64,000 nt of DNA from Lysobacter silvisoli (lineage in GTDB: Bacteria; Pseudomonadota; Gammaproteobacteria; Xanthomonadales; Xanthomonadaceae): NCBI RefSeq assembly GCF_003382365.1, contig NZ_QTSU01000001.1, forward strand, positions 2,356,001-2,420,000, in the 5' to 3' direction. Positions 2,339 to 63,830 of this stretch are shown one piece after another (within the stretch, counting starts at the first letter, position 1; every line of letters begins with the position of its first letter). The notes under the pieces are model-generated. The model searched no databases and was not told the DNA's origin. It worked only from the letters and a program-made list of their open reading frames with translations. The translations under genes and the position numbers were made by a program.

Positions 2339-3724
2339 ATGAAAGACGAGCCGAACCCGAGGTCGCGACGCGTTTACTGGCGGGCGGCGAGCCTCGCCGG
2401 CTTGTTGACGCTGACCCTGGGCTCGGCCGCGCAAACGTCGCTGCGTTGGAACGGCGCGCAGCCCTCCGCGAACGCCGCTAGTTCCGCGCAGACCTTGCCG
2501 CAACCGGTGTCCGGCTACAGCGCCGCGCGCAACGACACCCTGCCGCTGGCCGCAGGCTTCGACGTGCAGCAGTTCGAAGCGATGGCGCAGCAACTCGTCG
2601 CCAACCAGCGCGTGCCCGGCCTGGCCATGGCGATCGTGCACGACGGCCGCATCCTCAGCGCGCGCGGTTACGGCATCACCGACGTCAAGGCCGCCGAACC
2701 CGTCGACGGCCACACCGTGTTCCGACTGGCCTCGCTGTCCAAGGGCGTGGCCGCGACCATGGCCGGCGTGCTGGTCAACGACGGCACCCTGCGTTGGGAC
2801 AGCAAGCTGGTCGACTACATGCCCGGCTTCCAGCTGGTCGATCCCTACGCCGCGCAGCAGATCACCGTGGCCGACCTGCTCAGCCACCGCGTCGGCCTGA
2901 CCCACAACACCTACGACCGCGATCTGGAGAACTACGCCGACTACCGCGTACTCACCCAGAAGCTGGCGTACGCGCCGATGAACTGCCAGCCCGGCACCTG
3001 CTACGGCTACCAGAACATCGCCTTCAGCCTGATCGGCGACGTGGTCTTCGCCGCCACCGGCGACTTCTACAGCCAGGAAGTGCAACGCCGTCTGTTCAAG
3101 CCGCTGGGCATGAACGACGCCAGCCTGGGCCTGGAAGGCATCACCGCCAGCGCGCGCTGGGCCAAGCCGCACGTGCGCGCGCGCGGCGGCTGGGTGTCGG
3201 TGACGCCCAAGCCCACCTACTACCAGTTGCCGCCGGCCGCCGGCGTCAACGCCAGCGCCAGCGACATGGCGCAGTGGCTGCTCGCGCAGACCGGCCACCG
3301 CCCCGACGTTCTGCCCGCGCCGCTGCTGGCCACGCTGCACCAGCCGCTGGTGGACACGCCTGGCGAAACCCGCGGCTCGCCCTGGCGCCGCTCGCGCGTG
3401 AGTTCGGCCGGCTATGCCTTGGGCTGGCGCGTGTACGACTACGCCGGCCACCGCCTGGTGTTCCATGGCGGCGCCGTGCAAGGCTACCGCGGCCTGGTCG
3501 CGCTGCTGCCCGAACGCGACCTGGGCATCGCCGTGCTCTGGAACAGCGAAAGCGCCCTGCCCTCTGGCCTGCTGCCGACCATTCTCGACCGCGCCATCGG
3601 CATGCCCGCCGAGCGCTGGCTCGATGTCGACTTCGACGATCCGACCTTGTACGTGGATGCAGGGCGTCCGACGCCCGCGCCGCCCGGCAGCGAGGCGAGC
3701 ACGGCGACGGCTGCGCCGCGCTGA
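2339..3724 (+). CDS. Exported serine beta-lactamase-like hydrolase (class C / PBP family)
   Basis: A 461-aa protein with an N-terminal hydrophobic export segment (about residues 15-32). The catalytic pattern of the class C beta-lactamase/DD-peptidase/esterase fold is present: S132-L-S-K135 (SxxK), Y224-Q-N226 (YxN) and H376-G-G (the third box, replacing KTG). The C-terminal 25 residues are proline/alanine rich. The family includes esterases, D-aminopeptidases and beta-lactamases, and sequence alone does not choose between them. The HGG box is more typical of esterase/EstB-like members than of true AmpC enzymes. It is transcribed divergently from lemA, with 72 bp between starts. Confidence 0.88.
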   Translation: MKDEPNPRSRRVYWRAASLAGLLTLTLGSAAQTSLRWNGAQPSANAASSAQTLPQPVSGYSAARNDTLPLAAGFDVQQFEAMAQQLVANQRVPGLAMAIVHDGRILSARGYGITDVKAAEPVDGHTVFRLASLSKGVAATMAGVLVNDGTLRWDSKLVDYMPGFQLVDPYAAQQITVADLLSHRVGLTHNTYDRDLENYADYRVLTQKLAYAPMNCQPGTCYGYQNIAFSLIGDVVFAATGDFYSQEVQRRLFKPLGMNDASLGLEGITASARWAKPHVRARGGWVSVTPKPTYYQLPPAAGVNASASDMAQWLLAQTGHRPDVLPAPLLATLHQPLVDTPGETRGSPWRRSRVSSAGYALGWRVYDYAGHRLVFHGGAVQGYRGLVALLPERDLGIAVLWNSESALPSGLLPTILDRAIGMPAERWLDVDFDDPTLYVDAGRPTPAPPGSEASTATAAPR

Positions 3725-4339
3725 GCTGAGGGTTCCGTTGGTTGTTTGAGCATTGCCTCGCCTTGCGGGGCGATGGGGCTGGGTAACGACCTGTGTCGTT
3801 CGAGCCTAGGGCTTCGCGAAAGACTCTCGCCGCGATTTGCGGCCCCGCGGCCCTCACCCCAACCCGCACCCCGGCCCGACCGCACAGCGGTCGGGCGTTC
3901 GGTGCAGCGCGAGCCGGTGGCTCGCAAGCGCTGCCCCTCACCCCGCAAGCCGGAGAGGGGCTCGAAAGCACGGCGGCGTCGAATGCGTTCCCTCTCTCGC
4001 TTGCGGGAGAGGGCTAGGGTGAGGGGGTGAGCGCGGAGCGCGATTGCTTTTTGATCCCTTAGCGGACCTGGTGCCGTAGCTGAGGATTCGCGGTCGCGGC
4101 TTGCGCCGCTCCTACGGAGGCTGGCGCTGCTTTCGCCGTAGATGGGATGCGCGGTCGCGGCTTGCGCCGCTCCTACAAGGGGCCTGCGTGGCTTTTGTCG
4201 GAAAGCGGCGCTCGCGATCGGCTGACGCCGCGGAGGCTAGCGCCCCGACCGGCCGCGCGGTTTTCCGGGCCCCCCAAAAAAAACTCTCCCCCCGCCTGGG
4301 CTGCGGGGAGAGAGCGGTATTACGGCGATCGGGACTTTA
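3725..4339. repeat. Gene-free spacer made of dispersed repeats
   Basis: No supportable gene lies here. Around 3851-4030 are inverted copies of the CCCTCACCCC / GAGAGGGCTAGGGTGAGGG type commonly scattered in xanthomonad genomes. At about 4091-4117 and 4150-4176 two direct copies of GCGGTCGCGGCTTGCGCCGC occur, which belong to the TGTAGGAGC repeat family seen again near 24 kb. The segment ends at the terminator of the histone-like gene. Small reading frames here overlap the palindromes and look incidental. Confidence 0.6.
4276..4312 (-). terminator. Intrinsic terminator of the histone H1-like gene
   Basis: Read on the minus strand, CTCTCCCC pairs with GGGGAGAG across a GC-rich loop and is followed by a run of eight T residues. 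It sits 28 bp past the stop codon of the lysine-rich gene. Confidence 0.85.
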
Positions 4340-4744
4340 TTAGATGAGCGGAGCCGGGGTCGCCGGCATAGCCGCAGCAGCCTTGGCCTTGCGGGCCGGC
4401 TTCTTCGAGGCCTTCTTGGCCTTCTTGGCAGGCTTCTTCGCAGCCTTCTTAGCGGCCTTCTTCGCGGCCTTCTTAGCAGGCTTCTTGGCGACCTTCTTGG
4501 CAGCCTTCTTAGCAGGCTTCTTGGCGACCTTCTTGGCAGCCTTCTTGGCGGTCTTCTTCGCAGCCTTCTTAGCGGGCTTGCGGGCGACCTTCTTGGCGGC
4601 CTTCTTCGCCGGCTTCTTGGCGACCTTCTTGGCAGCCTTCTTGGCTACCTTCTTGGTGGCCTTCTTGGCGGCCGGCTTCTTAGCGACCTTCTTCGCAGCC
4701 TTCTTGGCGGCGGGCTTCTTCTTCGCAGCTTTCTTCGTGGCCAT
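4340..4744 (-). CDS. Histone H1-like lysine/alanine-rich DNA-binding protein
   Basis: A 134-aa protein built almost entirely of KKAAKK, KKVAKKP and KKPAKKA repeats, ending in a non-basic tail (AAAAMPATPAPLI). No globular domain is visible. Such proteins resemble the C-terminal tail of eukaryotic histone H1 and bacterial H1-like proteins, which bind and compact DNA. ATG at 4744 is preceded by GAGGAG with about 9 nt spacing. The DNA is internally repetitive, so length probably varies between strains by slippage or recombination. The long opposite-strand frame is a reflection of the repeats and is not coding. Confidence 0.88.
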   Translation of the reverse strand: MATKKAAKKKPAAKKAAKKVAKKPAAKKATKKVAKKAAKKVAKKPAKKAAKKVARKPAKKAAKKTAKKAAKKVAKKPAKKAAKKVAKKPAKKAAKKAAKKAAKKPAKKAKKASKKPARKAKAAAAMPATPAPLI

Positions 4745-4929
4745 GTGATGGCTCCTCGTCAGTGGTTTTGATCAGCGATCGATCAGGGGTGTTGCGGTTT
4801 TAAAGCCCAGTTGAACCATAGCCGCGGGAGTCGGACCCGCGAGCAGCCGCCGACGCGCCAGGCGCGCCGTAACGGATTCAGCGGCACGTTCCCCGCAATG
4901 GGGTACGTACCCGGCCGCTTGCGGCGGCC

Positions 4930-4965
4930 AAACAAAAACCCGACCCGCACGGAGCGGACCGGGTT
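4930..4965 (-). terminator. Strong intrinsic terminator upstream of the histone-like gene
   Basis: On the minus strand AACCCGGTCCGC pairs with GCGGGTCGGGTT (12 bp with two G-U wobbles) around a TCCGT loop, followed by TTTGTTT. The nearest gene end in this direction is not obvious, which is what points to a small transcript. Confidence 0.75.
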
Positions 4966-5125
4966 GGATAGGGCGCGGCGCCTGCGGACCGAAGAGGAAC
5001 GATTGCGTTTTCGCGAGGGAAGCGAATCCAGCGTCCACCGGTTTGTCGGTCCGGGCGGAGGTTCGTTTTTTGCCGCGCGTTGTCGCTGTCGTTGTACTCA
5101 CTCTCTTCCGCAGGAAACGTCTGCT
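4930..5125 (-). ncRNA. Candidate ~195-nt small RNA (promoter-to-terminator unit)
   Basis: A near-consensus sigma70 promoter (5132-5160, minus) is followed about 195 nt downstream by a strong intrinsic terminator (4930-4965). In between, no reading frame both starts and stops. A frame opening at a GTG (5099-5101) with GGAAGAGAG before it has no stop before the terminator and runs through it to 4772. I therefore prefer a non-coding transcript, or a leader for the histone-like gene that is attenuated. A short coding role for the 5' part (beginning VSTTTATTRGKKR) cannot be excluded. Confidence 0.35.
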
Positions 5126-5131
5126 GGGCGA

Positions 5132-5160
5132 AACCTAATCACGCTTTTTCGCACTGTCAA
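5132..5160 (-). promoter_or_regulatory. Sigma70-type promoter
   Basis: TTGACA (perfect -35 box) and TAGGTT (partial -10 box) are separated by 17 bp on the minus strand. Expected transcription start is about 5125. It drives the candidate small RNA and, by read-through, possibly the histone-like gene. Confidence 0.6.
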
Positions 5161-6093
5161 CAACTCCGGCGATTTTTTTTCGTCCCCGGCCTCCGCCACC
5201 CGAGTCCGGAGCGCGCGTCGCCGACGCTCGCCGACGACGCGCGACGCGAGCTCGAACGCGCGCGCGTTTTCGCGCGCATGAAAAAAACAACTTGTTTTAA
5301 GCGCTTTCGTTCGCACGCGATCGCGCAACGAACGAAAACGCATGTGCGCGCACGCACCGCCGCGGATGCCCGCGAAGGGCGCTAGGGAGGCGATTTCGCG
5401 TTCGTCGGAATGGGCGCGCGAAGGCGCCGCTTTTCGCGCCGCACAAGCCGATTTGCGCGAAAGTGCGCGAACTTTTTCCGCCGCCGCGACCGGTAGCCGG
5501 CGACCGTCGGCGACCGCGATCGCGCTCGACGCAGGTCTCGCGCACGCCGTCGGCGCGTCGCCGCGCGGCGCGTCGGCGAGCCGCTGCGAGCGTCGCCACC
5601 GACACCGCAGGCATGCGCGGCACCGCTGAAATCCAGCGCTTTTGCCGATGCCGCGGCGGCGCCGACGGCAACGCCGCTCGACCGCGACGTGCGCGCGCGA
5701 CCGCCGTCGAAGACGGCACGGCGGCGTGAGCGACGGGTGAAGCGGCGCGCGCGGGAAGCGGACGCCGCTCGCCGACGTCGGCGCCGAACCGGCGACGCAG
5801 CGCGCCGGGCGCTCGGCCGAGGCAGAGAAGCCGAGACTGCGCGCGCATCCTTGCGGAGGCCGGCGCCGGTGCCGGCAAGCGCGACGGGATGGCGGCGCGG
5901 CGGTGGAGCGAACGGGGCCGACGCCCGACGGCTCGGCGCGGCGGCCGCGATTCGCCCGCGCGAACCGGCAGGCGCAGGCCGGACTCGCCATCGATCGCGG
6001 CAGCCGACCGTGCACGGATCGGCAGGATCGTTCGGCCTCGCTGCCGTGGCGCCGTCGGGCGTCGGAGCGGGCATGAGGGCGCTGACCGCGCCG
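5161..6093. other. CpG-rich 0.9-kb region without a recognisable gene
   Basis: The stretch is dominated by CG, CGCG and GCG runs. Long open frames exist in several overlapping phases on both strands, but their translations are arginine/alanine-rich strings without domains, and no phase shows the usual codon bias. A short AT-rich island at 5281-5300 contains the palindrome AAAACAACTTGTTTT. I see no tRNA, rRNA or mobile-element signature. Confidence 0.5.
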
Positions 6094-6126
6094 CAAAAAC
6101 GCGAACGGCCGCATCAGCGGCCGTTG
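6094..6126 (-). terminator. Intrinsic terminator of gcvH
   Basis: On the minus strand AACGGCCGC pairs perfectly with GCGGCCGTT around TGAT, then CGCGTTTTTG follows. It lies about 60 bp after the gcvH stop. Confidence 0.7.
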
Positions 6127-6184
6127 CGTGCGGCCGGACCTGGGTCCGGCCTGGCATTGCGCGGACCGCAGTCCGCGAGACGCC

Positions 6185-6580
6185 TTAGTGGTCGTCGTCT
6201 TCCAGCAGTTCGGCGTAGTCGTCCGGCGCCAGCAGCTCGTTGAGCTGGTCGGGCTCGTCGATCTCGACGGTGAAGATCCAGCCTTCGCCGTAGGCGTCTT
6301 CGTTGATGGTCTCGGGCTTGTCGCTGAGCGCGGCGTTGACCGCGGTGACGGTGCCGCTGACCGGGGCGTACACGTCCGAGGCGGCCTTCACCGACTCGAC
6401 CACCGCGCAGGCGGTGCCGGCTTCGACGCGGTCGCCGATGTTCGGCAGCTCGACGTAGACCAGGTCGCCTAGCAGGCCCTGGGCGTGGTCGGAGATGCCG
6501 ACGGTGACTTTGCCGTCGCCTTCGACGCGGGCCCACTCGTGGGACTTCATGAACTTCAGATCGCCGGGAATTTCACTCAT
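6185..6580 (-). CDS. gcvH: Glycine cleavage system H protein
   Basis: A 131-aa lipoyl-carrier protein of normal length. The lipoylation site is K65 in [18 protein letters not shown], and the N-terminal [21 protein letters not shown] block is characteristic. H protein shuttles the aminomethyl intermediate between the P, T and L proteins of the glycine cleavage complex in the cytoplasm. gcvT lies two genes upstream on the same strand, with an isomerase-like gene in between; gcvP is not in the window. A terminator follows the stop. Confidence 0.97.
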
Positions 6581-6668
6581 GGCTGGCCTCGAACTCTGCG
6601 GGGGCGGCTGTGGGGGAGACGGCGCCTAGTTTAACGGCGTCGCGGCAACATGCGAGAGAGTGTGGCGG

Positions 6669-7301
6669 TCAGTCGCGACCGCCGTCGTGAAGATAGGGCG
6701 GACGGCCGCTGAGCAGCGCCTCGCGCAACTCCTCGACGCGATCCTGACCCCAGAACGGTTCGCCGTCGAGCACGTAGCCCGGCAGCCCCGGCAGGTCGGC
6801 GGCGATGGCCGCTTCGGTATTGCGCTGGTAGGCCGCGACCGTTTCTTCCGCATCGGCCGCGGCCACGACCTGCGCCGGGTCGAAACCGTGACGCTCGAGC
6901 AAGTCCGCGACCCGCATCAGGTCGCCCAGATCGTGATCGTGTACCCATAGCGCGCGGAACGCGGCGTCCATGTAGGCCGACGGATCGCCGCCCGCGGCGG
7001 CGATCGCCAGCGCGCAGCGGTCGGCCAAGCTCGGATCGGTGGGAAAGAACCTGGGCGCCAGGTTCAAGGGCAGGCCGCGGCGCGCGCGCCAACGCTGCAG
7101 CTCGACCAGCCGGTAGCGCTGGCGCGCTGGCGCGCGCTGGCCCAGCGGCACGCCGCCGTTGGCCGCGAACAGATCGAAGATGCGCACCGGCCGGTAGACC
7201 ACCTCGGCGCCGGCCTCGCGCACCGCGTCCAGGAACGTGGCGTGGCCCAGGTAGGCGTAGGGCGAGATCAGGCTGAAGTAGTAATCAACGCGCGCGGCCA
7301 T
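6669..7301 (-). CDS. 2-hydroxychromene-2-carboxylate isomerase-like protein (DsbA/GST-kappa fold)
   Basis: A 210-aa thioredoxin-fold protein beginning MAARVDYYFSLISPYAYLGH, where SPYAYLG is the glutathione-binding/catalytic Ser region of HCCA isomerases. The late LPGLPGYVLDGEPFWGQDRVEEL block is the family's cis-Pro and C-terminal signature. Characterised members isomerise 2-hydroxychromene-2-carboxylate with glutathione during aromatic degradation; the natural substrate here is unknown. It starts 9 bp after gcvT and lies 88 bp before gcvH, so it sits inside the glycine cleavage cluster. Whether it is functionally linked or a passenger is not clear. Confidence 0.85.
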   Translation of the reverse strand: MAARVDYYFSLISPYAYLGHATFLDAVREAGAEVVYRPVRIFDLFAANGGVPLGQRAPARQRYRLVELQRWRARRGLPLNLAPRFFPTDPSLADRCALAIAAAGGDPSAYMDAAFRALWVHDHDLGDLMRVADLLERHGFDPAQVVAAADAEETVAAYQRNTEAAIAADLPGLPGYVLDGEPFWGQDRVEELREALLSGRPPYLHDGGRD

Positions 7302-19493: not shown

Positions 19494-19632
19494 CCTCCGG
19501 GGAGTAGCCCCTTCCGGCCACGGCCGTGAAGACCTGCGTCAACACACTTGGCCGGCAGGCCATGGCGCAGGAGCGGCAGCCAGCGGACTCCGCCCAGCGG
19601 ACCACGCCAGCGACCACGGGCAAGACCGAAGG
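19494..19632 (+). promoter_or_regulatory. yybP-ykoY manganese riboswitch
   Basis: The 5' P1 strand CCTCCGG leads directly into the conserved loop GGAGTAGCC, and the 3' loop GGGCAAGACC leads into CCGAAGG, which re-forms P1 with one mismatch. These two loops make the Mn2+-binding site in the known aptamer. It lies upstream of a GDT1-family cation exporter, a known class of target for this riboswitch. A GC-rich hairpin (GCCGGGCC with GGCCCCGG-like arm) near the start codon could be the expression platform. Confidence 0.88.
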
Positions 19633-63674: not shown

Positions 63675-63685
63675 TCTGCCGGTTC

Positions 63686-63760
63686 GCCGAGGGGCGCTGC
63701 GACCGCGACGCAAGAGCGCGGCCAGGCTTGGCGAAATTCACCCGTAACAACGGCGCCCGA
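63686..63760 (+). promoter_or_regulatory. SAH riboswitch
   Basis: GCCGAG (63686-63691) pairs with CTTGGC (63727-63732) as P1. The conserved GGGGCGCTGCGACC and GGCCAGGCTTGG blocks follow, and GGGCGC (63692-63697) pairs with GCGCCC (63753-63758) as the pseudoknot. This is the published SAH-element architecture, placed directly before ahcY, its standard target. SAH binding should raise ahcY expression. Confidence 0.95.
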
Positions 63761-63830
63761 TGTCCGCGGTCCACCGCCACCGGCCGGTTTCACCGGCCCC
63801 GCGCGGCGACCCAAATAATCGGAGCTCACA

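Follow-up and report, generated by a model that had tools for sequence, protein, structure and literature searches.

The window (the whole 64,000-nucleotide stretch of Lysobacter silvisoli DNA that was analysed) carries on its minus strand a histone H1-like gene, preceded by a promoter and by a leader whose open reading frame contains an intrinsic terminator. The features are as follows:

5160–5155, minus strand: −35 element TTGACA (window sequence; conserved pattern, 359 of 395 genomes in the family)
5137–5132, minus strand: −10 element TAGGTT, after a 17-nt spacer (sequence, alignment)
5124–5110, minus strand: 5′ hairpin P1, GCAG 5124–5121 with CTGC 5113–5110 (alignments)
5101–4772, minus strand: leader ORF with a GTG start, 109 codons, TGA at 4774–4772; open, peptide not conserved
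5059–5034, minus strand: hairpin P3, TCCGCC 5059–5054 with GGTGGA 5039–5034 (alignments)
4965–4929, minus strand: intrinsic terminator, stem 4965–4937 plus a T-rich tail, inside the leader ORF (scan, conservation); proposed attenuator
4885–4815 (approximate), minus strand: second conserved leader block with a hairpin like a tRNA T-arm, GCGGGTCCGACTCCCGC (by eye)
4760–4751, minus strand: ribosome site of the H1-like gene, GACGAGGAGC (sequence; similar in the relatives' rows inspected)
4744–4340, minus strand: histone H1-like Lys/Ala-rich ORF, 134 aa (ORF list; named by composition)

The first-pass annotation had placed a promoter-to-terminator unit directly upstream of a histone H1-like gene, and this neighbour was found as described, the ORF lying at 4744–4340. 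The ORF has no match in Pfam or NCBIfam, and the anti-SD duplex at its ribosome site has a median energy of −8.1 kcal/mol in 82 representatives. On the far side of the promoter, about 0.9 kb of very GC-rich DNA without a clear gene (5170–6110) separates it from gcvH (6580–6185), and two copies of GCGGTCGCGGCTTGCGCCGCTCCTAC, perhaps a REP-like element, lie at 4090–4176, downstream of the H1-like gene.

The perfect TTGACA with 17-bp spacing that the same annotation had reported was confirmed in the sequence, and the promoter pattern TTGACA-N12-GTGATTAGGTTTCG is present with at most two mismatches in 359 of 395 Xanthomonadaceae genomes, never with more than one match per genome row; its reversed control scored 0 among the matches listed. 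Carriers, again among the matches listed, belong to Xanthomonas, Stenotrophomonas, Pseudoxanthomonas, Luteimonas, Thermomonas and Lysobacter. One copy close to those of Stenotrophomonas (L055) comes from a record titled Bacillus subtilis SK7B5, so that assembly is probably contaminated or mislabelled. Bases flanking the −10 element are strongly conserved in the alignment of family loci, and transcription would start near 5125. A generic consensus scan of 3500–7000 listed no promoter, because the −10 box is weak. The 36 family genomes without the pattern are grouped in few genera. In G088 and G255, both among these 36, the H1-like gene lies behind a diverged promoter (loci L209 and L210), and the frame open towards H1 has a GTG at 59 nt from TTGACA. 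Another pattern-less genome, G028, also gave no match in a search with the H1 protein; this search matched only 4 of 18 genomes and missed G039, which has the gene, and is thus too insensitive to show absence.

Among 176 loci with the pattern, 14 end within 350 nt of the promoter and are not testable for H1, 159 have an H1-type start, and three (L029, L058 and L088) have a MATRK-type ORF at 368 nt. The H1-like gene is thus found downstream of the promoter in all 162 testable loci, at 257–488 nt from TTGACA; since some genomes are represented twice among the 176, distinct counts are given separately, and here there are 153 distinct sequences.

The terminator stem has 12 pairs, 8 of them G–C, a loop of 5 and the tail TTTGTTTGGC, so the 12-bp stem with a U-tract described in the annotation stands, and the hairpin is kept at a near-constant distance in relatives. 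A lone terminator-like match is weak evidence, because 3.5 kb contained 9 against 5.1 ± 2.1 expected, and conservation is the stronger argument. For the comparison, 90 representatives were chosen from 169 loci at <88% identity, and dropping the 4 with no H1 start in reach left 86. Terminator-like hairpins occur in 68 of these 86, about ten of them farther downstream than the usual site, versus 9.5 ± 2.8 in mononucleotide shuffles. Of the 59 representatives with a hairpin at the usual site, 53 have its end 195–216 nt from TTGACA; the sequence of the hairpin varies. U-tracts are weak in the Xanthomonas terminators, and the single-strand folding energy of the unit is unremarkable (z = −1.06).

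The GTG frame that spans this terminator is open in nearly every relative. In a set of 82 representatives (L156 and the GTG-less L095, L169 and L174 being left out), it contains one stop (L157) between GTG+6 and 62 nt before H1, versus 68 stops in 47 loci and 33 stops in 24 loci for the other two frames and 78 ± 8 stops in 49 loci expected from a first-order Markov model. The limit of 62 nt was chosen after the stop positions had been seen and was applied unchanged to a second sample; counting the distal region to 25 nt before H1 gives 45 stops, because the natural stop of the frame falls there, and the limit at 62 nt leaves one. When all 158 loci whose start could be placed are taken together, the GTG frame has 10 stops in 7 loci (L049, L078, L091, L112, L156, L157 and L159, each interrupted farther than 62 nt upstream of H1), versus 161 stops in 93 loci and 47 in 35 for the other frames; in L049 and L156 the early stop lies ahead of the hairpin. 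On the opposite strand, the three frames are interrupted by stops in 44, 68 and 50 of the 82 loci. The GTG itself is absent in 4 of 162 loci (L095, L123, L169 and L174), and the ribosome site before it is no better than control windows (−3.0 vs. −3.2 kcal/mol). In the clade of L047 the frame seems to decay, L049 having an early stop after an indel and L123 having lost the GTG, while L047 is intact; this clade is a natural experiment on the leader frame.

The frame also ends at a particular place. Among the 108 loci that bear a terminator, the GTG frame passes it in 106, the window included, and reaches its stop in the interval from terminator to H1 in 105, versus 48 and 49 for the other frames; on 104 distinct sequences these end-position counts become 101, 46 and 46. 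New stops were further counted among the 934 substitutions that separate 52 independent gapless pairs, with the GTG fixed by motif: 0 were seen in the GTG frame versus about 24 expected, and 26 versus 50 and 11 versus 28 in the other frames. As the other frames thus show about half or fewer of the expected stops, scaling by them brings the figure expected for the GTG frame down from 24 to nearer 11, and its lack of new stops remains conspicuous. The second sample comprised 20 regions, 17 of them usable and 3 of these repeating known sequences; in the usable loci the GTG frame has 0 stops versus 12 and 10 in the other frames, and two of the 20 loci have an H1-like gene without GTG or ATG at the expected place. 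Some frame comparisons took the longest GTG/ATG frame, which biases them towards openness; in the key openness counts the start is set by its position or by a motif, and the pair test repeated in this way gave the same outcome.

What is kept open does not behave as a protein sequence. The pN/pS of the leader frame is 0.92 (52 pairs; the two alternative frames give 0.88 and 0.89) compared with 0.26 for H1 codons 2–16 (44 pairs), and the GC content by codon position is 0.61, 0.64 and 0.67 in the leader frame versus 0.47, 0.46 and 0.83 in H1. A near-neutral peptide together with depleted stops indicates that openness is selected and a particular peptide is not; judged from these substitution patterns, translation of the leader, rather than its product, seems to be under selection.

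With the promoter, the terminator, a frame kept open without a conserved peptide and a constant linkage to H1 legible in the DNA itself, the preferred reading, to which we give a probability of about 0.58, is ribosome-coupled attenuation of the H1-like gene in the manner of the E. coli pyrBI leader. Such a mechanism needs just this: a product-less open frame that spans a terminator and stops close to the ribosome site of the following gene. RNA polymerase would start near 5125 and produce a leader with the 5′ hairpin, the GTG at 5101, which would serve as the start codon, and the open frame, which is usually of about 80–136 codons and would give no sequence-specific product. The intrinsic terminator would lie inside this frame, about 40 codons from its start. 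A ribosome close behind the polymerase would prevent the terminator hairpin (and Rho loading), and H1 would be transcribed; when translation fails or lags, the hairpin would form and a short RNA of about 165–220 nt would be released. The ribosome would stop 13–58 nt before the H1 ATG, and with the leader stop this near the H1 ribosome site, translation of H1 may also be coupled.

The pause site upstream of the pyrBI terminator is U-rich; unlike it, the H1 leader shows no U-rich pause tract upstream of the terminator when inspected by eye. The H1 leader also departs from pyrBI in its gene, in its longer ORF (about 80–136 codons) and in its second conserved block after the terminator; the T-arm-like hairpin of this block is swapped for other hairpins in some relatives. 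The likeness lies in the order of parts, namely a promoter, a leader ORF spanning an intrinsic terminator and a structural gene just after it, as far as pyrBI/pyrL is described in the portions consulted of two papers, according to which the pyrBI terminator sits within a 135-bp leader gene (PMC4824070) and coupled translation of pyrL prevents it (PMC5021804). As in pyrBI-type attenuators, the peptide sequence would not be the signal, given the pN/pS of 0.92 and the flat codon positions.

A second explanation accepts the same leader and gives the terminator a secondary role, or that of a processing hairpin: the open frame would shield the RNA against Rho or degradation, or bring ribosomes to the H1 start. 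As the main account it is unlikely. A terminator was found in 108 of 158 loci, and the 50 without one by the rule used, Stenotrophomonas maltophilia among them, mostly retain the open frame, so in these loci, at the least, part must be played by Rho protection or by translational coupling with H1. Delivery of ribosomes is also consistent with the position of the stop, which lies 13–58 nt upstream of the H1 ATG in 79 of the 80 representatives having one. However, the terminators of the 108 loci sit at a near-constant place within the frame, and under a similar rule they are found in 68 of 86 representatives versus 9.5 in shuffles, both of which argue against this explanation.

A third explanation, in which promoter and terminator delimit an independent trans-acting sRNA and H1 is served by another promoter, appears improbable, despite the almost constant length from promoter to terminator. 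The unit is never apart from H1 in the testable loci of the first sample, and in the second sample the H1-like gene lies behind the promoter in 19 of 20 loci, the exception (L264, the same place as L155, for which the scripted search had given no promoter match) being a two-mismatch promoter match with no H1. A shorter promoter pattern matched five genomes of the wider order outside the family, and in four of these (L216 and L218–L220), which represent two sister families, an H1-like gene follows it at 256–283 nt; the match in the fifth, L217, which has no H1-like gene, is probably due to chance. Between terminator and H1, no second conserved promoter was seen by eye in the family loci. This linkage within the family, in the second sample and in the sister families, together with the lack of a visible second promoter, argues that the promoter belongs to H1, and the unit is probably the 5′ leader of the H1-like gene rather than a free-standing sRNA gene. 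In addition, the terminator is absent from several genera, and an sRNA would not need an open frame. The first-pass annotation had left the choice between an sRNA and an attenuating leader; the linkage (162 of 162, 19 of 20 and, outside the family, 4 of 5) favours the leader and speaks against an independent sRNA; the terminated RNA may conceivably have an extra role as an sRNA.

The sister families also constrain the attenuation reading. One of their loci has promoter and H1 with all three frames closed; promoter and H1 predate the open frame, which weighs against attenuation. An RNA model of the leader (R1) matched 35 of 36 genomes of the own family among the matches listed and none of the other 164 genomes drawn from the order (145 of them summed rather than taken row by row), the two sister families in which the promoter–H1 link holds being without a match. 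The leader sequence therefore looks restricted to the family, though promoter plus H1 are older.

The structured parts of the leader offer the sRNA explanation some further support, in that P1 and P3 show changes on both sides of their pairs. The unfitted and model-fitted alignments gave 77.9% and 86.3% paired cells for P1, and 96.4% and 94.9% for P3, compared with 35–51% overall for slid control structures (unfitted alignment); alignment A1 comprised 74 of the 90 representatives, divergent ones being left out. In the fitted alignment, both-sided changes occur in 3 of 4 pairs of P1 and in 3 of 6 pairs of P3. The covariation in related genomes that the annotation had suggested as a check is thin in number, with three such pairs in each hairpin and only 5 and 4 cells. 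As both-sided cells are few and slid controls give as many (up to 29 vs. 18 in the actual structure, unfitted alignment), the covariation signal is limited. With the model-fitted alignment, RNAalifold retained P3 alone, and an APC-corrected G-test gave mostly phylogenetic noise, with its top pair belonging to P1. P3 is possibly an RNA polymerase pause hairpin. A long-range helix P2, joining the ribosome site to a downstream CUUCC stretch, was rejected: 64–66% of its cells are paired, with a permutation p of 0.05, and 35% of other leader stretches pair equally well (67 loci).

That the frame encodes a small functional protein is very doubtful. The frame is open and its start codon mostly conserved, and aligned frames had suggested a conserved small protein; this candidate was excluded by pN/pS (0.92), by GC by position and by substitutions that are nearly equal across the codon positions (273, 300 and 312 in the proximal 36 codons; 49 pairs). 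Related leaders often differ by 1- or 2-nt gaps, L039 and L144 use different frames for the distal half of the leader, and the frame of the window has no match in Pfam or NCBIfam. The annotation had argued that a protein is unlikely because the frame crosses the terminator: its outcome holds, as no peptide is conserved, but its reasoning does not, since relatives strongly retain an open frame across the terminator (106 of 108 loci). Likewise, the coding conservation of the GTG frame that it had named as evidence against a small RNA was found for openness and not for peptide sequence. Least credible of all is chance, i.e., a U-poor, GC-rich leader without selection on the frame. Frames are often open at such composition and one other frame is also short of stops (33 vs. 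78), but the depletion is specific to the GTG frame in the pairs (0 vs. 24, or about 11 when scaled) and in the second sample.

The unit resembles no catalogued RNA in the searches made. Rfam 15 gave no match at the unit above the gathering cut-off and two matches in the window, both far away; weak matches in the window appear solely under an E-value threshold. An SAH riboswitch (RF01057, 55.3 bits) lies at 63683–63765 on the plus strand, and a yybP-ykoY manganese riboswitch match at 19494–19581, also on the plus strand, has exactly the gathering score of 45 bits. Among 14 related loci the only match was L031, a 6S locus added as a control, and 16 further loci gave 0 matches. 6S RNA (RF00013), raised by the length of the unit, was rejected, as the 6S match of the genome lies elsewhere and none is at the unit.

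Several known systems share single elements with the H1 leader. Amino-acid leader peptides of the trp, his and thr type combine a translated leader and a terminator with a conserved run of regulatory codons. The H1 leader likewise pairs a frame with a terminator; unlike theirs, its ORF runs through the terminator rather than ending ahead of it, and no conserved run of regulatory amino-acid codons was found in it, the peptide being near neutral (pN/pS 0.92). arfA is made from a non-stop mRNA, with a terminator inside its ORF, and encodes a conserved rescue protein; the H1 leader has the terminator inside the ORF as well, but its frame is without a Pfam match and without peptide selection. The small RNA that inhibits Hc1 in Chlamydia is IhtA.

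Literature on related systems was consulted in part. Premature termination and uORFs in E. coli 5′ UTRs, as presented in the sections consulted of PMC7815308, likewise involve early transcript ends, in other genes and another organism. Inhibition of translation of the histone-like Hc1 by a Chlamydia small RNA appears as a reference title in a Xanthomonas oryzae sRNA paper (PMC3039613), whose consulted text mentions histone only in that reference; it is a parallel for the RNA control of a bacterial histone-like protein proposed here, with the difference that the H1 leader RNA is the gene's own leader. sX13 is, in the consulted part of PMC3771888, a family-restricted Xanthomonas sRNA downstream of polA; the H1 leader, too, looks restricted to Xanthomonadaceae, at a different locus. 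In the consulted text of a 2010 survey of premature terminators (PMC2965389), Xanthomonas appears once, for rpsL, and the word histone is absent. The portions of the literature searched contain no description of the H1 leader; a transcript at this position may nonetheless have been published from Xanthomonas dRNA-seq. Ribosome-coupled attenuation is a known kind of control, of which the H1-like leader would be a new case with a putative function.

A broader proposal is put forward tentatively, the balance being somewhat against it: in most of the family, a sequence-free leader, i.e., an ORF of 80–136 codons kept only for its translatability across a terminator, would dose the H1-like protein. 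The physiological signal would then be the closeness of ribosome and polymerase, which H1 output would report, tying nucleoid compaction to translation capacity. Because leader ORFs are mostly short, selection that keeps a frame open while leaving its peptide free is difficult to demonstrate; with some 150 distinct natural replicates in one family, the idea that translation itself, rather than its product, is the regulatory input can be tested by comparison alone. The case also carries a caution, namely that the inference of no protein from a frame that crosses a terminator may be wrong. If the proposal is true, the dose of a histone-like nucleoid protein would be linked to transcription–translation coupling in Xanthomonas, Stenotrophomonas and Lysobacter relatives.
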